Below, piece after piece: positions 1,161-34,927 of a DNA stretch of 37,884 nt. Position 1 is the stretch's first letter, and each line of letters opens with the position of its first letter. The notes below the pieces were generated by a model, which worked only from the letters and a program-made list of their open reading frames with translations, was not told where the DNA came from and did not search any database. Position numbers and translations under genes: made by a program. This DNA is from Candidatus Saccharimonadota bacterium (GTDB lineage Bacteria; Patescibacteriota; Saccharimonadia; Saccharimonadales; Saccharimonadaceae). Location of the stretch: contig JAFONX010000010.1 in the NCBI GenBank assembly GCA_017418275.1, forward strand, positions 1 through 37,884, read 5' to 3'.

Positions 1161-2495
1161 CTAAGATATATTGTCATTCAGAATCTTATGACTATAAACC
1201 ACCTGATACAACGTACGCCATATCATTGCCACAAGAGTCCCCAATGCCACTCCTTCAAGCTTCCAGAACTGCACCGCAATCAACGACGCTACTATATTAA
1301 TCGCTGCTTCAGTAGCACACACCCACGACAACTCTTTAAACTTACCCGCCGCATATGCTAGATTTACGTGTGATTCACGTAGCAAATAAACCATCTCCGC
1401 AGTTAGCATTAGAATTGCAAACACCGGCCGATCATAATCCACATCTACGATATCTCGCGTATAAAAGTTAATAAACGGCCGAATCAGAACAAAAACCAGA
1501 ATAAAACCAGTCGTAATTAATCCAAACATCCCCCAGCGATACTTCGAAAAACTACGACGTATTTTTGCCTTATCACCACTTGCAAGCACGTGGCCTAAGC
1601 TTGGAGCTATTCCCCGCGATATCGCCTGCACTAGCCCACGAATCCCAGCTGTAACCAGCAAATAAACGCCATACACGGACACTTCTAAATAACTTGCAAA
1701 TATCGTCAGAATCACAATATCCGTATTGTTGTGAATAAATGCCGCAAAACTAATCAATAGCCCATCCCAGCGCTTCTTAAGCAAATCTCTATTTAATTGC
1801 ATTGGTCGCTTCGTACGCAAATGCCAATTATATCGCCGCTTGATTATTACGTAAAAAACTATCGGTTGAATCAGATAGCATAGCCCTGTCGCAATCTTTA
1901 ATAGTAGGATATTCGGCCAAAGCCTAATACAGACAATAGTTAGAATTAGCGACAAGACACACATACCTATCTGTACAAAAGCCACAACATAGACCTTTTT
2001 ATCCGCATTAAGCAAAGTACGTGGCGCCAAGGCGAAGCCATATTGAACTATTTGCACAAGCGCCAAAACCCAAACAAGCAAGAATACGAAACCAGAATTA
2101 AATTCGCTCCTAAAGACCACCGCAAATACTACCGAGAGTATTGTTATATATCCTAAAAATAGCCAAGCAATTCTTTTACAAAAGAACGTCATTGTATCAT
2201 AAATAGATTTAGCACTTCCCATATCGCGCCGCCTCAAAGCCCGATACAGACTAGCCGATACCACCCCGGTAACTCCGCCTTCCGCCAAAGAGATATAGCT
2301 TAAAAACTGATTAATCGAAAGCACAATTCCATTTAGTTCTGATCCAAAACTTTCTAGAATTAACCGCGGCACAATCAGTCCGTTAATTATAGTGACAATC
2401 TGAAGCGTCACGCTCGCTACTGCATTAAGCAGCGCTCGATTATTCAAGAAGCGTCGCAGTCGCCGTTCAGACTCAACAGACCCTACTTCTATCAT
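1161..2495 (-). CDS. Polysaccharide flippase, Wzx-like (MOP/PST superfamily)
   Basis: A 444-residue polytopic membrane protein with about 12-14 hydrophobic helices and a positively charged N terminus. This is the size and layout of oligosaccharide flippases, which move lipid-linked repeat units to the outer face of the membrane. The N-terminal stretch NGLIVPRLILESFGSELNG and the mid-protein NNTDIVILTIFASYLEVSVY are typical of Wzx/PST proteins. The start codon follows the licD-like stop with no gap (TAA then ATG), which implies translational coupling. Its neighbours include a Wzy-like polymerase and several glycosyltransferases, so the cluster looks like a Wzx/Wzy-dependent pathway. Confidence 0.85.
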   Translation of the reverse strand: MIEVGSVESERRLRRFLNNRALLNAVASVTLQIVTIINGLIVPRLILESFGSELNGIVLSINQFLSYISLAEGGVTGVVSASLYRALRRRDMGSAKSIYDTMTFFCKRIAWLFLGYITILSVVFAVVFRSEFNSGFVFLLVWVLALVQIVQYGFALAPRTLLNADKKVYVVAFVQIGMCVLSLILTIVCIRLWPNILLLKIATGLCYLIQPIVFYVIIKRRYNWHLRTKRPMQLNRDLLKKRWDGLLISFAAFIHNNTDIVILTIFASYLEVSVYGVYLLVTAGIRGLVQAISRGIAPSLGHVLASGDKAKIRRSFSKYRWGMFGLITTGFILVFVLIRPFINFYTRDIVDVDYDRPVFAILMLTAEMVYLLRESHVNLAYAAGKFKELSWVCATEAAINIVASLIAVQFWKLEGVALGTLVAMIWRTLYQVVYSHKILNDNIS

Positions 2496-3323
2496 TTAAT
2501 TGACTGCGCTTTCTCGCCATTGATATTTCCCTAAATGATGCGGCACGCGCTCTTTCTCTGGCGGCAAAGTCATATAATCGCCATATTTGATATTCAAGAA
2601 CTTATCAAAATCCCGCACAATCAGATAGCTTCCATCTTCAAACGGGACTTCTACAAGATGATCAAACAAATCCTTTTCAAACACCTCGCAGCCTGCACAA
2701 ACCGTATTCGAACTCACATAGCGCATAGGTCGATCGTTTTTGCTTCGCATTAATTCCAATGTTCGCATCTTATTTTGCTCCCAACCCGCACGGTAGAGCT
2801 GCGCTGGAATAAAATACAAAGGTCGTTTTATCATTTCATAAGATTTCTTACTAGCCTGATAATAATGTTTTGCTCCAACGAAATCTACAAATTTCTTTTC
2901 TTGTTCCTTACAAAGTTGCGCAAATTTTTTCGCTTCTTCTAAATCATTACCAGCATTATTAAGCGGAAAAATATCCACCCAAATCCCCAACTCTTCAATA
3001 TCGTTATAACCATCTTGCGAAACATAGCTATTTTTATCGCAAAGCTTTGCAAAGAATCGATTGTATTTTCCATTTTCTGGTAAAAGCAATCGATATCTTT
3101 CATCATTTCGTAAAATCTTCGTCAAACGCTCGTAATCTGGAGCCAATAGCGCAATATCAATATCATCGTCCCAAGGAATAAAGCCGCCATGTCGAATTGC
3201 GCCTAATGCGGTACCCGAAAATAAGCTATACTGGATATCATTCTGGCGACAAATAGAATTGATGTATCGCAAAATATCTAACGCTATTTTTCGTCTTTCT
3301 TCAAAACTAATGCTACCTTTCAT
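2496..3323 (-). CDS. LicD-family phosphotransferase
   Basis: LicD/fukutin-type enzymes transfer a phospho-alcohol from a CDP carrier (phosphocholine, or ribitol/glycerol phosphate in relatives) to sugar hydroxyls. The 275-residue product has the diagnostic segment GTALGAIRHGGFIPWDDDID at about residues 42-61, with the metal-binding WDDDID, and a later KYGDYMTLPPEKER motif near residue 250. The start abuts the upstream GT2 stop (TAA then ATG), with AAGGAAG as ribosome-binding site. Because the same operon encodes a TagD-type CDP-glycerol synthase and no choline genes are seen, glycerol phosphate is the most economical donor. That donor choice is inference; the family call is firm. Confidence 0.88.
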   Translation of the reverse strand: MKGSISFEERRKIALDILRYINSICRQNDIQYSLFSGTALGAIRHGGFIPWDDDIDIALLAPDYERLTKILRNDERYRLLLPENGKYNRFFAKLCDKNSYVSQDGYNDIEELGIWVDIFPLNNAGNDLEEAKKFAQLCKEQEKKFVDFVGAKHYYQASKKSYEMIKRPLYFIPAQLYRAGWEQNKMRTLELMRSKNDRPMRYVSSNTVCAGCEVFEKDLFDHLVEVPFEDGSYLIVRDFDKFLNIKYGDYMTLPPEKERVPHHLGKYQWRESAVN

Positions 3324-4238
3324 TTATCTTCTTCCTTTCACTAGTAATTTCATGCCACCCCGCAACCGATAATAGTGCCTTAAGCTCATCGGTCTGCTAT
3401 TGTAAATCCGCACAAATACACGATAAATCCCTCGCGCACCCCATTGCTCTAGTCTGCCTAGGTTTTCTCTTAGAAAGATAAAGTCATTTTCAGGATCACG
3501 AAGCTGTCTTTCTAGGCAACGTATCATTTTTCGACGCACAGCCTTACCATCTCGTGTCAATAAGCTTTCAATGCGTTGCATTGTATATAAAATATCTTCA
3601 CACTTTGACAGCACATCTCCATCACTCGACGTTAAGCTCCCGGCGCGATAACCGTAATAATAATCAGCTTCCTCGATAACCGAAACATGCCGAATTTTCG
3701 CTCGACGCATATAGCGAAGAATAAAAATCGTATCTTCCATAAAACTCGTTTGTTTCGAAAAGCGCAGGTTTTTCGCAATCGTCGTATCAAGCAAACACCC
3801 CGAGGCTCCACCATAAAACCTATCTTTCAGCATTAACTTCTCTGCCTCGCGCCTCCCAACTTCAAATTTTTGATATTTTACTCTATCGACACACATCTGT
3901 ACGAGTCGCCTTTCGTGACGCGTATTATACAATAATTCAATAGCTCGCCTCGATAGGAAATCGTCCGCATCCACAAACACAACATATTTACCACGCGCCA
4001 TTTTTAACCCCCGATTTCGCGCTACCGATACCCCCTTATTTCGCTGATAAAAATACCTAACATTTTTATCTATTCTTAAGAATTTTTCACAAATTTCCAC
4101 ACTACTATCAGTGCTACCATCATCAATCAGAATCACTTCTAATCTGTCGTAGCTCTGCTCTAAAATACTGATTAGACACTGCTCCAGATAATCCTCTGCA
4201 TTGTAGATTGGAACAATTACAGATATTAAATCGTTCAT
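3324..4238 (-). CDS. Family 2 glycosyltransferase
   Basis: A GT-A fold inverting glycosyltransferase of 304 residues, acting at the cytoplasmic face of the membrane to add a sugar to a lipid-linked acceptor. It begins with the canonical SVIVPIYNAEDYLEQCL, then VILIDDGSTDSS, the acceptor-proximal VSVARNRGL and the metal-binding VFVDADDFL at about residue 90. The substrate sugar cannot be told from sequence. The start at 4238 is fixed by the conserved N terminus. The upstream polymerase frame runs 116 bp into this gene, which is abnormal for the operon and probably reflects an indel just before this start. Confidence 0.9.
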   Translation of the reverse strand: MNDLISVIVPIYNAEDYLEQCLISILEQSYDRLEVILIDDGSTDSSVEICEKFLRIDKNVRYFYQRNKGVSVARNRGLKMARGKYVVFVDADDFLSRRAIELLYNTRHERRLVQMCVDRVKYQKFEVGRREAEKLMLKDRFYGGASGCLLDTTIAKNLRFSKQTSFMEDTIFILRYMRRAKIRHVSVIEEADYYYGYRAGSLTSSDGDVLSKCEDILYTMQRIESLLTRDGKAVRRKMIRCLERQLRDPENDFIFLRENLGRLEQWGARGIYRVFVRIYNSRPMSLRHYYRLRGGMKLLVKGRR

Positions 4239-5310
4239 ATTTTTCTTTCTTTTCTTTTACTCCAAATAACAAAAAACTTACTGGCGCCAAAGCTACACAA
4301 TGCCTTAGCCAAGAGCCAAAATCCGGCTCGAAAATAGCCGAAACCATCACAAAAGCTAATACTAAATGCCCCACTAAAACTGCATGCCCACCCATGCGAA
4401 GTTCCACATGCCACAGCCTAATATTTAATAGCAATATATATATCAAGGCGAACCAGTACTTAACTCCATGCCAAACCAGCTCTATTGGCAAGCTTAGTCG
4501 CGCAAAGTTCACTAGATAATTCAACGAAAACTTGGCCATATTCGAACTAATACCAAAAGGCTCAAGAATCATTGTTTGCGCATCAGTACTGCCCATACGA
4601 TAATCGTTCGCTAAATGACGAGCTAAGGCAATATCATAAAAGCTCTTCTTGTCGACCAGCGACACAACTAATATTCCACCAAGCAAAACGCCAAATATAC
4701 ATACAATAAACATGCCGTAGTTGAACATACTTTTTTGCCAACGCCCAGTCACGATGCGATGTATCTTCCAGATCGCAACAAACATTAACGTAATTAGTAA
4801 AAAATATTTTCGAAAACAGAATGATTCGATTAATAGTACTCCTGCCGTTAACCAGACTTTCTGTCTTTCGCTTAGCCGTTTCGCATGCAGAATCATCGCA
4901 ATAGCTAGGAAAATCACAAATTGAATCAAATCCTTTGTTAATCCAAAAGTATAGATACTTGAAAATGCCATCGTTGCAATAAGGAAAAACTCCTGTATTC
5001 TTCCATGAATTCTGCATCGATACCACCATATTAAGATTAAGGGGATCATAACCAGTGCTACAATTAGCGCCCATTCCTCAAGGCTAGTCAGCTTAAAGAA
5101 ATTCAACTTTCTGTAGATACTAGCAACAAAGTTGTATGCTGAATCATAGCTTCTATCATATAGCAGCATTCCAAGTATTTTTCGAGAATCAAGGAAATAC
5201 TTTTTAGGCAAAACCCAGAACGAAACCATTCTAATCGCAAAAGCCCCAATTCCAAGCACGATATAATTCAAAAACACACGAGGCCTGCGCAAAAAACTTC
5301 GCCTACGCAT
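4123..5310 (-). CDS. Wzy-like polysaccharide polymerase; 3' end probably frameshifted
   Basis: A polytopic membrane protein with about ten hydrophobic helices. It has IYTFGLTKDLIQFVIFL mid-protein and EPDFGSWLRHCVALAP near the end, a pattern of exopolysaccharide/O-antigen polymerase-like proteins (EpsG/Wzy type). These link repeat units on the outer face. I chose the ATG at 5310 over 5346: AGAGG precedes it, it gives an 8-bp overlap with the upstream gene, and it leaves an Arg-rich N terminus before the first helix. The last 38 or so residues (after KEKKEK) overlap the GT2 gene, are Cys-rich and look non-native. One extra A in the A-rich tract at about 4239-4258 would instead end the protein at TGA overlapping the GT2 ATG. 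Function assignment is moderate because Wzy proteins diverge strongly. Confidence 0.7.
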   Translation of the reverse strand: MRRRSFLRRPRVFLNYIVLGIGAFAIRMVSFWVLPKKYFLDSRKILGMLLYDRSYDSAYNFVASIYRKLNFFKLTSLEEWALIVALVMIPLILIWWYRCRIHGRIQEFFLIATMAFSSIYTFGLTKDLIQFVIFLAIAMILHAKRLSERQKVWLTAGVLLIESFCFRKYFLLITLMFVAIWKIHRIVTGRWQKSMFNYGMFIVCIFGVLLGGILVVSLVDKKSFYDIALARHLANDYRMGSTDAQTMILEPFGISSNMAKFSLNYLVNFARLSLPIELVWHGVKYWFALIYILLLNIRLWHVELRMGGHAVLVGHLVLAFVMVSAIFEPDFGSWLRHCVALAPVSFLLFGVKEKKEKYERFNICNCSNLQCRGLSGAVSNQYFRAELRQIRSDSD

Positions 5311-6385
5311 GCAACCTCTGACTAACAATGTCGCCATAGCACTCATCTACCATATCGATTGTTGAGTTTTGTTCTTCCAACAAACACGCGCGATACTTAG
5401 CAGCGCTCGCCTTTGTTTTGTAATATTTTTCATTTTTAAGGAGCCTTTTTATCTCTACGACAAAGTCCTGCTCTGATTCACAAGTCTTGCCACACTCATT
5501 CGTAACTATTTCTGGTAATCCGCCAACTTTAGACACAACACAAGGCAGACCTAAAGCCAACGCCTCATAAGCCGCCAAGCCGTAACCTTCCCATGAAGAT
5601 GTCAGTACAAATATCTTGGATTGACTCATGATTTTATATGGATTCTTCTTGTACCCCACAAACTTAATGTTGTCTTTAAGATCCATATCTTCTGCAAGCC
5701 AACATATTTGTTCGGTCATTTCGCCTTCACCAACCCAGACCGCCCTAATCCGAGGATTGCTTTTCTTAAGCCGCTTCAAAATACGTAAAAAGCGCTCCGG
5801 ATTTTTCTGTTTAACAAGACGCGCTACGCAACAAATATCGTATTTTTTCTTTATCTCAGCGTCATCTTTTAGATACAGCCTAATTCTCCTATGCGAAACT
5901 GGATTACCAATAGTTTTAATTTTCTTGTGCAGCAATCTAGAAAACACATACTCGCGCTCAATAGAATCCGACACTGCCAAAACATATTCCGATCTCCATG
6001 CCGCCGCACCAAACACTATTGCATATGGACAAATCCTCTTTAGCCATGGCGAATTATTGTGAACGTGTGCTATTATCGGAATTCCTCCGCCAGCTAAAGC
6101 GCATATCACGGTTGCGCGATAATCTGTCGCATGCAGAATATCCGGTCTATACTGCTTTACTACTCTCTTAAGCTCACGTACTGTCAAATTAGAAATTTTA
6201 ATGTGTTTTATATTCGAATCAATCAAGAAACTATCTACGTCGCCAGATTGTGAAACCCAATAGAAATCATATTTGTCTCTTAGCGAATTAATTATTTCCA
6301 AGTTAACTAACTCCGCGCCAAACATCACATTTGTATTCAAAACGAAGAAAATCTTCTTTTTTGTATTCTTCTTTGAATAACTCAT
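5303..6385 (-). CDS. Family 4 glycosyltransferase
   Basis: A GT-B fold retaining glycosyltransferase of 360 residues. The C-terminal nucleotide-sugar domain shows CVARLVKQKNPERFLRILK, WVGEGEM and the EX7E-type segment SSWEGYGLAAYEALALGLP at about residues 260-280. The N-terminal acceptor domain begins KKKIFFVLNTNVMFGAELV. The start overlaps the previous gene's TGA as ATGA, the usual sign of translational coupling. Donor and acceptor sugars are unknown. A member of this operon probably builds the repeat unit together with the other GT4 and the GT2. Confidence 0.88.
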   Translation of the reverse strand: MSYSKKNTKKKIFFVLNTNVMFGAELVNLEIINSLRDKYDFYWVSQSGDVDSFLIDSNIKHIKISNLTVRELKRVVKQYRPDILHATDYRATVICALAGGGIPIIAHVHNNSPWLKRICPYAIVFGAAAWRSEYVLAVSDSIEREYVFSRLLHKKIKTIGNPVSHRRIRLYLKDDAEIKKKYDICCVARLVKQKNPERFLRILKRLKKSNPRIRAVWVGEGEMTEQICWLAEDMDLKDNIKFVGYKKNPYKIMSQSKIFVLTSSWEGYGLAAYEALALGLPCVVSKVGGLPEIVTNECGKTCESEQDFVVEIKRLLKNEKYYKTKASAAKYRACLLEEQNSTIDMVDECYGDIVSQRLHA

Positions 6386-7497
6386 ACTCTCGCCAACCCC
6401 CTATTATATGCTGTTTCTAAGTTTTTCGCCTCTTTCGAAATATCAAGACAACGATGCGCGAAATACAACGCAGTATCATCAATTCGCTTCATTATTTTAA
6501 ACTCCGCTCCAAAGCCGGCCCCTAACTTGTCTATTTTCGAAGTCGGCAACACGACAACCTCCGGCGAAATACTTTCACTAAACAAACACGGCAAACCATT
6601 CGCCTGCGCCTCTATTCCAACCAAAGGTAGACCTTCATAAAGGCTTGGCAACACAAAAGCATCAAAGACGGAATAGTATTTTTCAACCTTTTCACACCAA
6701 TCTACAAAACGAATCGACTGACTAATCCTCAGTTCCGCTGCGCGTAATTTAATCCTATTTTTTAAAGGTCCTTCCCCTACTAAAACTAAAATCGCCGAGG
6801 GGTACTCGGCGATGATTTCAGAAAAACGTTCAATTAAGAACAAATGATTCTTCTGCCCCACAAATCTGCCGATATGCCCAAATACCAAAGCATCACTAGG
6901 AATGCTAAGCCCCGCACGTAGTTTCTCACGTGCGTCATTGTCAAACTTATATTTTTTTAGGTCAATTGCGTTATGAATGATCTTTACTCGACCATCTTCG
7001 TAAGCCCGATTTCCAAATTGAAATCTCCCCGCCTTCTCCGAACAAGCAAACAAGTCGGTTGCCCAAACTTTCGAAAAAAGTCTTAATAGATGCTTAAGGA
7101 TGTTTCGTTTTAAATCTCTTCGGCAGCTTGTGTTGTGACTGTGCGAAATGCGAACTTTCACCCCAGCAAGCTTAGCGGCAAATAACGGAAAGACAGAAAG
7201 TGTATTGATATGCGAATGCACTATTCTATATTTTTGCTCCTTAAAGAGTCGAATTAGAAACTTCAGATAGCTTCGTAACTTCTGATAAGGGGGACAAATT
7301 ATTACCCGTCCGCCTAGCTTTTCTATTTCTTTATATGGAATACAAGTCGAATCAGCATCACAAATAAAATCAAATTGAATTCTCGAACGATCAATATGTC
7401 GGTAATAATTCATTACTACCGATTCCACGCCGCCGCCAATCCATTTTCCGACAACCTGAGCAACAATAACTGGCTTTTCTGATTCTTTATTACCCAT
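6382..7497 (-). CDS. Family 4 glycosyltransferase, EpsF-like; first gene of the operon
   Basis: GT-B fold enzyme of about 371 residues. The N-terminal VVGKWIGGGVESVVMNYYRH is typical of EpsF/capsule GT4 proteins. The C-terminal domain has GHIGRFVGQKNH, LVLVGEGPL and SLYEGLPLVGIEAQANGLP (EX7E). I prefer the ATG at 7497 to a GTG at 7506, because GGTGA lies 5 nt before the ATG and nothing suitable precedes the GTG. The stop TGA overlaps the next start. A promoter 36-65 bp upstream makes it the first gene of the seven-gene polysaccharide operon. Confidence 0.88.
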   Translation of the reverse strand: MGNKESEKPVIVAQVVGKWIGGGVESVVMNYYRHIDRSRIQFDFICDADSTCIPYKEIEKLGGRVIICPPYQKLRSYLKFLIRLFKEQKYRIVHSHINTLSVFPLFAAKLAGVKVRISHSHNTSCRRDLKRNILKHLLRLFSKVWATDLFACSEKAGRFQFGNRAYEDGRVKIIHNAIDLKKYKFDNDAREKLRAGLSIPSDALVFGHIGRFVGQKNHLFLIERFSEIIAEYPSAILVLVGEGPLKNRIKLRAAELRISQSIRFVDWCEKVEKYYSVFDAFVLPSLYEGLPLVGIEAQANGLPCLFSESISPEVVVLPTSKIDKLGAGFGAEFKIMKRIDDTALYFAHRCLDISKEAKNLETAYNRGLARV

Positions 7498-7532
7498 AGA
7501 CTTCACCGAAGTTTCAATCTGAATATTGAATC

Positions 7533-7562
7533 ATTTTATTTCAAGAAGACAGCCTTAGTCAA
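7533..7562 (-). promoter_or_regulatory. Promoter of the polysaccharide operon
   Basis: Minus-strand -35 TTGACT (7557-7562), 18-nt spacer, -10 TAAAAT (7533-7538). Expected transcription start near 7526, about 29 nt before the first glycosyltransferase start. Confidence 0.65.
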
Positions 7563-7711
7563 GCGTATTTTTTACAATTTTCACTTTTTTAAAATGACAG
7601 AAAAATTCGCAAGGAATTATGCGATTTTTACAATACATTTCGCGTAGTATTATTTACAACACTTTATACTTTAGGAGCATTTTAAAACTGTTGTAATTAT
7701 TACTTTTTCGC

Positions 7712-7741
7712 TTGTTTGCCCTGTTTGGCTTATGCTAATAT
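7712..7741 (+). promoter_or_regulatory. Extended -10 promoter of the NPKTA surface protein gene
   Basis: -35 TTGTTT (7712-7717), 18-nt spacer, extended -10 TGCTAATAT (7733-7741). AAGGAG precedes the ATG at 7769. The 7563-7711 interval is A+T-rich with no gene. It holds three direct copies of TTTACAA (7571, 7627, 7653) and an inverted TTGTAA at 7691. Confidence 0.6.
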
Positions 7742-7768
7742 CTGGTCTATCGCAAAAAAGGAGAAAAA

Positions 7769-9154
7769 ATGAAAATAGCAACAAAAGTTGCTGTAATGGT
7801 TTTTATGGCTTTGTGTTTTTTCGGTCAAAAACACTGCTCAGCCACCCAACCAATATTAACCGAAAACAGCATTGAAAATGTTGCACGCGCAACACATGAT
7901 GAATTTATTGGCGAAGATGGTGAGCTTCACGAGGTAAATTTGCATCACGCACTAAAAGGTTCAGGCGAAGGCCTTTATTTGGTAGAAGATCTTAAAGGTC
8001 AATATCGCCTAAACTATACCGGCGCATCTGCCGGCTGGAGCGAAAGCCTTTGGAATAATTACGGCACAAACGCTACCGGAAAATCTCATGTCCTCGACGC
8101 AAGTCTGGAAGACGATTCGAATGGCTTCGGCAACAGCACTGGCGCCTATCTAGACATTGCTGATGATGCAAGTATCAAGAAGGCTTACTTCGCGATCGAA
8201 TTTGGCGAAGATAAAACCAATAAGTATTATCGCTACCCCGTTACAGTTTACTACGCTCCAGAAAAAGGCCAAGTCGATCCAACAACCAAGCAATTACTCT
8301 ATATAACCGATTACGCCCTAACAACCTATAACTACAGCGCAACTTCAGTTAAAGTTACCGACTATAACCACTTTGGCTGGGTAGACTTTACAGATTACAT
8401 TAGCAAGCACGGCAAGGGTTGGTATTATGTAGCAAATATCCCGATTAATACAAATACTACTGGAGACTGGTCTGCCGAATGGTCCATCATTACAATCGAA
8501 GAAAGCCCCAAATTCGATCGACGTGAGCTAAAGCTGTCTCTTGGTGCAGCCACACAAGGCGACACCAACGAATGGTCAGAATACAGTATCCCTATCGATG
8601 GATTAATGGGACGCGAAGGCGAAGTAGTCGGCCAAGCTTTTATTAGTATGACGGACATTGATACCGGCATTAGCGAAGCTCAAATCGGTCTAGACGTAGA
8701 TAATGGTATTTGGCAAAGTATCATCGCTACAAACGGCTCTCGTACGCTCGAGAAGCCCCTAAACTACATTAAGACCAAGAATACTGAGCCACTCGATATT
8801 GACGTTTTATACGAAAATACAATGCCATACTTCGAGCTAAATGATGGTCGCAAAATTCTACAATCCGGCGTCGATACAGAACTGCTCGAAATCGGTAATT
8901 CCGACAAGCATAATATTCATTTCCTTAACAATTCGACTAAGCTCGGCTGGAGGTTCAACCCGAAAGGCCATGTCCTAACTATGCATATTCTAGGTTTCAC
9001 TATCGGCATCGAAAACGATAAAGCAATCCTAAATGAAGAGCAAAATCCCAAGACTGCGAGCGACCAGCCTCTGCAAATCATTCCCCTATCTGTCGCACCA
9101 TTCATTTTTGCTATAGTATTCGGAGTATACTATAGGAGCAATTATCGTTCTTAA
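7769..9154 (+). CDS. Secreted surface protein with an NPKTA sortase-type tail
   Basis: 461 residues. Signal peptide at 1-25 (hydrophobic core AVMVFMALCFF, likely cleavage after CSA). The C terminus has NPKTAS at about residue 425, then a hydrophobic helix and the basic tail YYRSNYRS; this is a sortase sorting signal of the NPxTx type rather than LPxTG. The central part (about residues 75-270), with YLDIADDASIKKAYFAIEFG, a VKVTDY strand and a WSIITIEESP segment, resembles beta-sandwich adhesin-like domains of actinobacterial and Firmicutes surface proteins; that similarity is from memory and moderate. Monocistronic, with its own promoter, AAGGAG ribosome-binding site and terminator, divergent from the polysaccharide operon. 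Probable client of the sortase at 33143-34447. Confidence 0.75.
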   Translation: MKIATKVAVMVFMALCFFGQKHCSATQPILTENSIENVARATHDEFIGEDGELHEVNLHHALKGSGEGLYLVEDLKGQYRLNYTGASAGWSESLWNNYGTNATGKSHVLDASLEDDSNGFGNSTGAYLDIADDASIKKAYFAIEFGEDKTNKYYRYPVTVYYAPEKGQVDPTTKQLLYITDYALTTYNYSATSVKVTDYNHFGWVDFTDYISKHGKGWYYVANIPINTNTTGDWSAEWSIITIEESPKFDRRELKLSLGAATQGDTNEWSEYSIPIDGLMGREGEVVGQAFISMTDIDTGISEAQIGLDVDNGIWQSIIATNGSRTLEKPLNYIKTKNTEPLDIDVLYENTMPYFELNDGRKILQSGVDTELLEIGNSDKHNIHFLNNSTKLGWRFNPKGHVLTMHILGFTIGIENDKAILNEEQNPKTASDQPLQIIPLSVAPFIFAIVFGVYYRSNYRS

Positions 9155-17385: not shown

Positions 17386-17451
17386 CAAGAACATGCCAAA
17401 CTAGATACCAGTACCAGACAGCCGCCTGCTCCGCAGGCGACATTGTGGGGC

Positions 17452-17504
17452 GTCGCCTCGGAAAATCCGAAGCGCCAGCGCTCCTCTGTTTTCACTCGGC
17501 TCCT
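17452..17504 (-). ncRNA. Conserved structured element downstream of tRNA-Leu(GAG)
   Basis: On the tRNA strand, about 80 nt after the CCA end: GGAGCCGAGTGAA, a variable hairpin (AGCGC/GCGCT), then TTCCGAGGCGAC. It is followed by a GCCTGC/GCAGGC hairpin and GCTGTC (to about 17418). The same order and the same conserved blocks occur after tRNA-Leu(CAA) at 34684-34766. GCC/GGC and GAA/TTC can pair around GAGY and CGA. Whether it is a functional RNA, a repeat or processing debris is unknown. Confidence 0.4.
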
Positions 17505-17539
17505 CCCACAACCGAACTACGTTCTCGCCCAGTAAGGGC

Positions 17540-17583: not shown

Positions 17584-17673
17584 TGGTGCGCCTGACTAGA
17601 CTCGAACTAGCACAGCTCTAAAATGGCCACTACCACCTCAAGGTAGCGTGTCTACCAATTCCACCACAGGCGC
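17584..17673 (-). tRNA. tRNA-Leu(GAG)
   Basis: Minus-strand class II tRNA, 90 nt with encoded CCA. Acceptor GCGCCTG/CAGGCGC, anticodon stem CTACC/GGTAG with loop TTGAGGT (GAG), a long variable arm, and T-loop TTCGAGT. Confidence 0.95.
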
Positions 17674-34463: not shown

Positions 34464-34502
34464 CAAAAGCCCATTTTATGCTAAGATATGGATATACAAG
34501 AC

Positions 34503-34589
34503 GGGCGAGTGGTGGAACTGGTAGACACGCTAGACTCAAAATCTTGTGGCAGTAATGCCGTGAGGGTTCAAGTCCCTCCTCGCCCACCA
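34503..34589 (+). tRNA. tRNA-Leu(CAA)
   Basis: Class II tRNA, 87 nt with encoded CCA. Acceptor GGGCGAG/CTCGCCC, anticodon loop CTCAAAA with CAA, a long variable arm, T-arm GAGGG/CCCTC with loop TTCAAGT. The anticodon stem has one T-T mismatch (28-42). An extended -10 TGCTAAGAT lies at 34479-34487. Its last 18 bases are repeated 188 bp downstream. Confidence 0.95.
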
Positions 34590-34660
34590 AAGCATAAAAA
34601 TGACCGCAAGGTCACTTTTTTATGCTAAAGTGGGTGAAGCTGAGGACTGGAACCCGAACG
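34572..34660 (+). repeat. 89-bp direct repeat copy 1, containing the tRNA-Leu 3' end
   Basis: Begins with the last 18 bases of the tRNA (GTCCCTCCTCGCCCACCA), then the terminator hairpin, then GTGGGTGAAGCTGAGGACTG and AACCCGAACG. Copy 2 at 34760-34848 differs at one base (G to A). Confidence 0.9.
34591..34626. terminator. Terminator hairpin after tRNA-Leu(CAA)
   Basis: AGCATAAAAATGACC pairs with GGTCACTTTTTTATGCT around a GCAA tetraloop, with a slight A/T bulge. Works in both directions. An identical copy is at 34779-34814. Confidence 0.85.
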
Positions 34661-34683
34661 ACCGTGAGGGTACACTCGAGCAA

Positions 34684-34766
34684 GGAGCCGAGCGAAGCAA
34701 AAATGCTTGCATTTTTATTTCCGAGGCGACACAGCGAACAAAGTGGCGTAAGCCACGCTGTCCCTC
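34684..34766 (+). ncRNA. Conserved structured element downstream of tRNA-Leu(CAA)
   Basis: GGAGCCGAGCGAA (34684-34696), a variable hairpin AAAAATGC/GCATTTTT, TTCCGAGGCGAC (34719-34730), a GTGGC-GTAA-GCCAC hairpin, then GCTGTC. The block order equals that after tRNA-Leu(GAG), while the hairpin sequences differ. It lies between the two copies of the 89-bp repeat. Function unknown. Confidence 0.4.
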
Positions 34767-34848
34767 CTCGCCCACCAAAGCATAAAAATGACCGCAAGGT
34801 CACTTTTTTATGCTAAAGTGGGTGAAGCTGAGGACTGAAACCCGAACG
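34760..34848 (+). repeat. 89-bp direct repeat copy 2, orphan tRNA-Leu 3' end plus terminator
   Basis: Same 89 bases as 34572-34660 with one substitution. The 18-nt tRNA 3' end is present, but no tRNA body precedes it, so this copy is not a tRNA gene. Confidence 0.9.
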
Positions 34849-34860
34849 GCCGCCTACTCT

Positions 34861-34889
34861 TTGACAAAACTCCATCGTTGTGTCATGAT
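34861..34889 (+). promoter_or_regulatory. Promoter of the 34928 gene
   Basis: -35 TTGACA (34861-34866, consensus), 17-nt spacer, extended -10 TGTCATGAT (hexamer 34884-34889). Confidence 0.7.
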
Positions 34890-34927
34890 TACATTCATCT
34901 TAGCACCTTACAAAGGAGGGGTATTTT

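Follow-up and report, generated by a model that had tools for sequence, protein, structure and literature searches.

Why does the 3' end of a tRNA gene occur twice within a few hundred base pairs of a small bacterial genome? We address this question for the tRNA-Leu(CAA) gene of a Candidatus Saccharimonadota bacterium (family Saccharimonadaceae), which lies in a stretch of 37,884 nucleotides (GenBank assembly GCA_017418275.1, contig JAFONX010000010.1, positions 1 to 37,884 of the forward strand) that we call the window. The window is contig C8 of a draft genome of 812,642 bases in 38 contigs, 83% complete. Our analysis suggests that the repeat probably marks a non-coding cassette of about 188 bp that is docked at the 3' end of tRNA-Leu(CAA) and belongs to a tRNA-anchored cassette system of Saccharibacteria. 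The system appears not to have been described before: in it, the ends of tRNA genes would serve these tiny symbionts as sockets for the exchange of single genes across species.

Results

The repeated tRNA end delimits a structured, non-coding unit

The tRNA-Leu(CAA) gene, the putative docking site, lies at 34503..34589 on the + strand (ARAGORN; Rfam RF00005) and ends in CCCACCA. The initial annotation of this locus described two 89-nt copies with one mismatch, 188 bp apart, each starting with the final 18 nt of the tRNA (34572..34589, +) and including its terminator, the second copy lacking a tRNA body. We found this description to be exact, and the match extends further, to 93 nt with two mismatches (34572-34664 versus 34760-34852; 98% identity; 188 bp from start to start); the 89-nt match sits inside it, with 99 bp between its two copies. 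A 98% match across 93 nt is far beyond chance. As described, each copy opens with the final 18 nt of the tRNA and spans a terminator-like hairpin. The enclosed DNA, said to measure about 100 bp and to have no integrase, is indeed crossed only by mechanical frames of 52-64 aa, and the unit in the window is without a gene.

The unit spans 188 bp from the tRNA end to position 34777, where the second 18-nt copy closes, and all of its parts lie on the + strand. A first terminator-like hairpin (AGCATAAAAATGACC-loop-GGTCACTTTTTTATGCT, 34591..34626, identified from sequence and folding) is followed by a left arm (34630..34655), which is an imperfect inverted copy of the 3' half of the tRNA (T-arm and acceptor strand). 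Next come a conserved core (GGAGCCGAG...CGAGGCGAC, with the inner hairpin AAAAATGC-TT-GCATTTTT, 34684..34731) and a variable hairpin (here AGCG..GTGGC/GCCAC..CGCT, 34733..34759), whose stem covaries between members of the family (helix 4). The unit closes with a right arm (34760..34777) that is an exact copy of the final 18 nt of tRNA-Leu(CAA). The 99-bp "insert" turned out to be the conserved part, a point that the first reading had missed, along with the left arm and the second family member described below: it matches R1, the covariance model of the structured family, at 34664..34761 (+) with E 9.4e-24. When the region 34503-34860 (tRNA included) was folded as RNA, it reached z -9.4, and none of 100 dinucleotide shuffles folded as well. 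Beyond 34777 the terminator and left arm occur once more, as a truncated second unit at 34779..34852 (+) that consists of a terminator-like hairpin (34779-34814) and a left arm ending at 34852, with neither core nor right arm.

The unit belongs to a family that follows many tRNA genes

The core of the insert recurs across the genus. We built the covariance model from 41 sequences. Alignment A1 holds 42 of the 44 references, without a truncated Val unit found in L043 and L059, and alignment A2 holds 41. Two loci, L007 and L008, duplicate others and were passed over, and L040 is cut off by the contig end. The model matched 36 of the 45 genus genomes (E 0.01), 140 of 295 sampled genomes and 29 of 61 genera of the family (E 0.001), and 28 of 379 sampled genomes of the phylum (E 0.0001). 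Seventeen of these last lie outside the family, and their matches are mostly weak. Among eight loci read there, three (G626, G486 and G604) have a same-strand tRNA right upstream, and two of these (G626 and G486) also have a matching 3'-end copy; the other five loci did not confirm, and the spread of the family across the phylum is only partly secured. A core-pattern scan of named genomes returned 29 loci, all from Candidatus Saccharibacteria and many from the rumen or omasum.

In the DNA that we fetched, 75 of 80 distinct copies have a same-strand tRNA upstream, and 14 tRNA species are represented. The distance from the tRNA end is 39-92 bp in 67 of these 75 copies; five of the remainder are tandem or second copies, and three stand behind gene cassettes. 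Unit length is likewise stereotyped (163-191 bp in 42 of 52 units). In the genome of the window, the model has seven matches, and each follows a tRNA on the same strand (Leu-CAA, Leu-GAG, Lys, Val-CAC, Gly, Tyr and Met). One of them is a second member in the window itself, detected by the covariance model at 17418..17523 on the - strand; it begins 61 bp downstream of tRNA-Leu(GAG) (17584-17673, -) and has a degenerate right arm. Of four loci with no tRNA nearby, none has a tmRNA or other known RNA, and two are tRNA-Val(CAC) arrays with intervening genes. At tRNA-Leu(CAA), an element with a right arm of 17-18/18 is present in 8 of 30 fetched loci (L005-L034), which are the best matches to a query that contained the element as well as the tRNA and are for that reason biased to occupied sites.

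These observations bear on a simple explanation of the locus, a local tandem duplication without mobility. The two copies are nearly identical over the 93 nt that hold the terminator and left arm, and G038 and G044 have tandem units too. Such a duplication accounts for the second, partial copy in the window. It leaves unexplained, however, that the unit recurs after 14 tRNA species with arms specific to each, and as an account of the unit it is extremely unlikely. The near identity of the copies, which had been taken as a sign that the structure is recent or maintained, is in part this local tandem repeat: the sequence shared with the second unit covers the terminator and left arm, after which that unit ends. 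The two-copy structure is also not fixed in relatives; G005, the closest relative with the element, has a single unit, whose arms track G005's own tRNA variant, the CCCTTCTCGCCCACCA form. An apparent first-position unit in G016 gave no model match and was not counted. Because contigs break inside units at L039/L040 (G009:C4, C13) and L055 (G038:C19), tandem copies are probably more numerous than draft assemblies show.

The arms are tailored to the tRNA, and the unit covaries

We compared the arms of the 75 copies with their own and with other tRNAs. The right arm matches its own tRNA at a mean of 15.9/18 positions, against 10.2/18 for tRNAs of other amino acids, and the own tRNA is the best match in 61 copies. 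It is perfect in 44 of the 75 and matches at 17/18 or better in 52; in 39 of these 52, the unbroken match counted back from the CCA measures exactly 18 nt. For the left arm, no other tRNA gives a better fit than its own in 65 of the 75. The right arm is a direct and the left arm an inverted copy of the same tRNA end, so one strand can pair both. In retroviruses the primer-binding site is also 18 nt long, like the right arm; we considered tRNA-primed reverse transcription, for which no search for a reverse transcriptase was made.

In the 42-sequence alignment, 95.6% of cells in the proposed helices are paired, compared with 78.2% in shuffles, and both sides have changed in 20 of 25 pairs. The covariation score is 0.455 versus 0.137 in shuffles, and none of 500 shuffles reached 0.455. 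Sliding the partners by 1-3 columns lowers pairing to 40-52% (at most 51.5%). The three structured units tested fold at z -3.4 to -7.1. In a search of Rfam 15, only tRNA scored above its gathering score in the window, and a permissive search of 34480-34900 brought nothing but tRNA near threshold. With its strong covariation and no counterpart in Rfam, the folded, tRNA-tailored unit represents a new family of structured nucleic acids.

Two rival explanations meet this evidence. According to the first, the repeats are attL and attR, the scar of a lost element that carried an integrase. Integrative elements usually leave a directly repeated tRNA 3' end as their trace, and tRNA-Leu(CAA) is a real target in the genus. 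In G006, an element of about 4.4 kb with a tyrosine integrase splits tRNA-Leu(CAA) near the anticodon (L072, G006:C1:12500-20500, positions 1819-6352); it carries a complete tRNA-Leu gene, which apparently replaces the broken one. However, that element, splitting its tRNA at the anticodon, looks different from the unit in the window, the 99 bp between the repeats show conservation and covariation at many loci and behind many tRNAs, and the length of the unit is stereotyped. We rejected the scar, which the initial annotation had listed among its options, because the insert itself is conserved; we regard it as very improbable.

According to the second, the unit would be a gene for a non-coding RNA, or else a 3' regulatory element of tRNA genes, passed on together with each tRNA, with mobility incidental or past; its arms would track the tRNA through a need to pair with it or to mimic it. 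The strong covariation favours this explanation, as does the finding that subfamilies track tRNA identity across the genus, which vertical descent predicts. The part of the right arm that is unpaired, the CCA included, is nevertheless copied exactly, which pairing alone does not explain, and no Rfam family apart from tRNA exceeded its gathering score. Further evidence on this question came from the genes that accompany the units.

Gene cassettes share the proposed tRNA docking site

Three structured elements lie at a distance from a tRNA, all of them behind tRNA-Val(CAC) with genes between: a zinc-finger protein gene in G009, a hydrolase-like ORF in G024, and a GNAT acetyltransferase gene plus an isochorismatase-like gene in the window's own genome (hydrolase and isochorismatase are our reading of the translations). 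In the last case, tRNA-Val(CAC) is followed by the GNAT cassette, the isochorismatase-like cassette and the structured element, each ending at CCACCA (L136, C7:28000-38000, positions 5861-7348). The gene units each end in a site that runs to CCACCA, and we defined two families of such sites, alpha and beta. When 21 oriented tRNA-Val(CAC) loci were searched on both strands, we obtained 22 matches at 21 places, all on the strand of the tRNA. Alpha sites occur in 28 and beta sites in 23 of the 45 genus genomes (E 0.05); alpha sites were found in 69 of the 295 family genomes, but in only 2 of the 61 genera.

The sites form directional arrays. G038 has 21 alpha and 7 beta sites in one-directional clusters with a spacing near 1 kb (10 sites on C13, all +; 6 on C20, all -; 6 on C26, all -), and C1 of G039 has 4 sites, all -. 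Arrays of this kind stand behind tRNAs for Val, Ala, Met, Leu and Gln, and the genome of the window has them too. At tRNA-Leu(CAA) itself, alpha cassettes are present in G248, and in G294 they stand behind a structured element. We scanned 20 cassette ORFs from two G038 arrays (ten more from G038 and G039 were left out) and obtained Pfam matches for 12. The cargo comprises acetyltransferases, a methyltransferase, peptidase S51, a hydroxyacid dehydrogenase, LysE, a serine hydrolase, an ABC transporter and a nucleotidyltransferase with an AadA_C domain, with a cupin below its cut-off; no recombinase domain was found in the 20 ORFs. The predicted nucleotidyltransferase is borne on a mobile gene cassette at L243 (G038:C20), positions 7098-7871. 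A leader past the junction is common to gene cassettes (L242-L245 and others): AACGGTTTATAAAATA... or a CGGC..GCCG hairpin with a T-run, then a TGTTAAAT-like sequence. It is possibly part of the recombination site.

The core pattern and the alpha-site pattern, both searched as exact patterns, had no matches in viral_contigs, and by blastn the unit had no match in phages or plasmids and the alpha site none in phages; we rejected a phage or plasmid origin on these grounds.

Junctions are precise and match the tRNA

Thirteen alpha or beta matches without CCACCA were left out of the junction set. In G000, G026 and G015 the GNAT cassette starts directly after tRNA-Val(CAC); in G039 and G007 it follows a beta site, and in G035 an alpha site. 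Every time it stands immediately behind CCACCA. Similarly, G014 and G043 share a 1570-bp cassette (94.6% identity). In G014 it starts at the right-arm CCACCA of the structured element behind tRNA-Val(TAC), and in G043 at an alpha site of a tRNA-Val(CAC) array. It ends at a beta site in both genomes, that of G014 having lost its CCACCA, and it is also present in G032 (92.3%); the xer loci of G014 and G043 are 71.9% identical. The junction is equally sharp where a site is empty. At tRNA-Ser(TGA), the empty site of G041 reads ...CCA/TTTTATGATATAATACCTCG (also written CCA/TTTTATGATATAATACCTCGTATGGCACCG), and the occupied site of G019 holds a 183-bp element and then CCA/TTTTTATGATATAATACTTCG (also written CCA/TTTTTATGATATAATACTTCGTATGGCACCG), such that the difference falls exactly at the CCA. 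The att-like reading of the repeated tRNA 3' end in the initial annotation was thus right, and of the three origins that it offered, a mini-cassette mobilised in trans comes closest, the right end of the structured element being interchangeable with a gene-cassette junction. The order of the cassettes also varies: the structured element precedes gene cassettes in G014 and G294 and follows them in G000, G009 and G024.

The ends of the sites, moreover, correspond to those of the tRNAs. Among 30 pairs of a tRNA and a locus with downstream alpha or beta sites, 29 tRNAs (Val, Ala, Met and Leu) end in CCACCA, and this is true of all 29 pairs with CCACCA-type sites; the remaining pair is a tRNA-Gln ending in CAGCCA with sites ending in AGCCA. 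We fetched twenty further regions, mostly where alpha matches stopped short of the model end, and together with L258 they yielded AGCCA-ended sites at 16 loci. At five of these, the fetched DNA contains a same-strand tRNA, and all five are tRNA-Gln (TTG or CTG) ending in CCAGCCA; the other 11 have no tRNA within reach of the fetched DNA. The window's genome has one AGCCA-ended site (C35). As far as the sequences tell, recombination within the last 6-9 bases would leave this pattern of matching ends. The junctions are precise, the cassette ends match the tRNA, and the right end of the structured element is itself a cassette junction. In the window's copy, the recombination junction is presumed to lie after 34777, by analogy with members at other tRNAs.

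These results return us to the RNA-gene explanation. The persistence of gene cassettes in genomes without the structured unit speaks for it. An RNA gene would not account, however, for occupied and empty sites that differ precisely at the CCA, for a right end that is an interchangeable cassette junction, or for the varying position of the element before or behind gene cassettes. We consider an RNA gene unlikely, and favour the docked cassette.

Cassettes move between species

One ABC-transporter cassette links three genomes: the G026 copy is 99.1% identical to that of G029 over 3559 bp and 98.7% identical to that of G038 over 3484 bp. In G029 the cassette lies behind tRNA-Val(CAC), and in G038 it is part of a tRNA-Ala(TGC) array. 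The xer loci of these three genomes are only 70.7%, 71.4% and 75.9% identical to one another. Between the window's genome and G039 the GNAT cassette is 96.5% identical, and between the window's genome and G007 95.3%; in G039 and G007 the sortase gene adjoining tRNA-Leu is 69% identical to the window's. A structured element is shared in the same manner: the Tyr elements of G032 and G034 are 98.3% identical over 231 bp, a match that ends at the right arm and whose left boundary is hidden because one contig starts inside the tRNA, and their xer loci are 76.7% identical. Cassettes have been exchanged between species and between tRNA loci.

A candidate recombinase

We asked which recombinases accompany the cassettes. 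The tyrosine recombinase family PF00589 was found in 39 of the 45 genus genomes, with exactly one copy in 34, and the conserved Xer-like protein (of G001) passes the NF040815 model XerA_Arch (227 against a cut-off of 220). Because it is the only recombinase found in most genomes, a XerA-like tyrosine recombinase acting in trans is perhaps the first candidate for the enzyme. In addition to the conserved Xer, two further tyrosine recombinases that resemble each other, 306 and 303 aa long, are encoded at L247 (G038:C35, 770-1690) and L248 (G033:C25, 763-1674). No integrase-bearing partner element adjoins the arrays that we read.

The eight tyrosine recombinases that we scanned, from eight genus genomes, all scored below the 265-bit cut-off of the integron integrase model TIGR02249 (best, 133). 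The serine recombinase domain PF00239 occurs in only 17 of the 45 genomes and is absent, for example, from the window's, and a serine-recombinase system was rejected because the domain is not wherever cassettes are. The IS110 DEDD recombinase PF01548 exceeded its cut-off in none of the 45 (one weak match below it, in G006).

The last result matters for the IS110 bridge RNA, a structured non-coding unit of similar length that carries sense and antisense copies of its target. The unit described here resembles it in length and in its sense and antisense copies, but both of its arms cover the same target segment and not adjacent halves; with no IS110 recombinase above the cut-off in any of the 45 genus genomes, we rejected an IS110 bridge RNA. 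A related idea is that the unit is a programmable guide unrelated to IS110, whose RNA or folded strand would direct a host recombinase to its own tRNA, which would make the whole a tRNA-programmed cassette platform. Sense and antisense arms of this kind would suit such a role; however, seven of nine genus genomes without a detectable unit keep their gene cassettes, and we think this quite improbable.

Discussion

We propose that the 3' end of a tRNA gene serves as a docking site, where cassettes would join precisely after the CCA of the tRNA. The far end of each cassette would carry a site that ends like the host tRNA, and further cassettes could follow there in the same orientation. A trans-acting enzyme would integrate and excise the cassettes by site-specific recombination within the final few bases of the tRNA sequence. 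In the window, the start of a second, decayed copy follows the unit. The arms of the structured unit, the left inverted and the right direct, could fold together on one strand.

Several observations weigh against this proposal. The right arm is at chance level (13/18 or less) in 18 of the 75 elements, in which the repeat is lost or was never present. The count of nine Leu(CAA) members is inflated by the tRNA in the query, the other loci having been found through the core or the model; every genome is a draft or metagenome-derived; and the junction evidence for the window's own copy comes from members at other tRNAs. The recombinase is an inferred component, and PF00589 was not found in 6 of the 45 genus genomes, the window's own included. 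One of the six, G028, is 94% complete and has beta sites; the other five are 81-87% complete. When the joined ends of 14 gene cassettes were folded, the top strand stayed above z -2 in 13, no better than shuffles, and we rejected an attC-like fold as a general gene-cassette end; two bottom strands reached z -2.8 and -3.4. Finally, nine genus genomes have no detectable structured element, yet alpha or beta sites are present in seven of them, which indicates that the folded element is not needed to keep gene cassettes. Because of these last two results, the folded core is neither required for cassettes nor a general feature of cassette ends. The core may act as a folded substrate for recombination or as an RNA, or it may be a selfish mini-cassette.

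Integrons offer one close likeness. As in integron arrays, mostly single-gene mobile cassettes with varied, adaptive cargo stand head to tail in directional arrays behind a fixed chromosomal docking site; the same cassette occurs in different order and in different species, and cassettes are exchanged between genomes. Unlike in integrons, the docking site is the 3' end of a tRNA gene with its junction after the CCA, none of the eight recombinases is an IntI by the NCBIfam cut-off, and the gene-cassette ends do not in general fold like attC, although the structured units, which do fold, may. The box motifs of integrons were not seen at the cassette junction.

Like integrative and conjugative elements, integrative mobilizable elements and islands that target tRNA genes, the units have the tRNA 3' end directly repeated at their distal boundary (17/18 or better in 52 of 75), but neither the window unit nor the 20 scanned G038 cassette ORFs contain an integrase. 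Cis-mobilizable elements, which accrete at tRNA genes, are flanked by att sites and have no recombination genes. The cassettes are alike in both respects; they differ in that no integrase-bearing partner lies beside the arrays read and in that single genes form long directional arrays. The ssrA genomic islands of Dehalococcoides are tandem insertions in the T-loop, with a 20-bp direct repeat of the gene's 3' end, and many have no integrase of their own (PMC3146451). They resemble the present arrays as tandem insertions behind a tRNA-like gene, bounded by 3'-end repeats. The islands use a serine-recombinase integration module at one tmRNA gene, whereas here many tRNAs are used, units measure 0.15-3.5 kb, the arrays scanned hold no recombinase gene, and there is a conserved folded non-coding unit. 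Another study (PMC8694215) describes one intron-bearing tRNA per genome and reports that no insertion sequences were found. We found no description of this cassette system in the open-licence literature, PMC10462680 included, although this does not prove its absence in print.

Saccharibacteria are tiny, reduced and host-dependent, and how they gain genes is poorly understood. With the junction, the partners and a recombinase candidate named, the proposal is directly testable. If it is true, these bacteria would have a second, independent solution to the task that integrons perform, with the ends of essential tRNA genes as universal docking sites; with no recombinase gene of its own, the system would carry single genes across species that share only about 71-76% identity at a marker locus.
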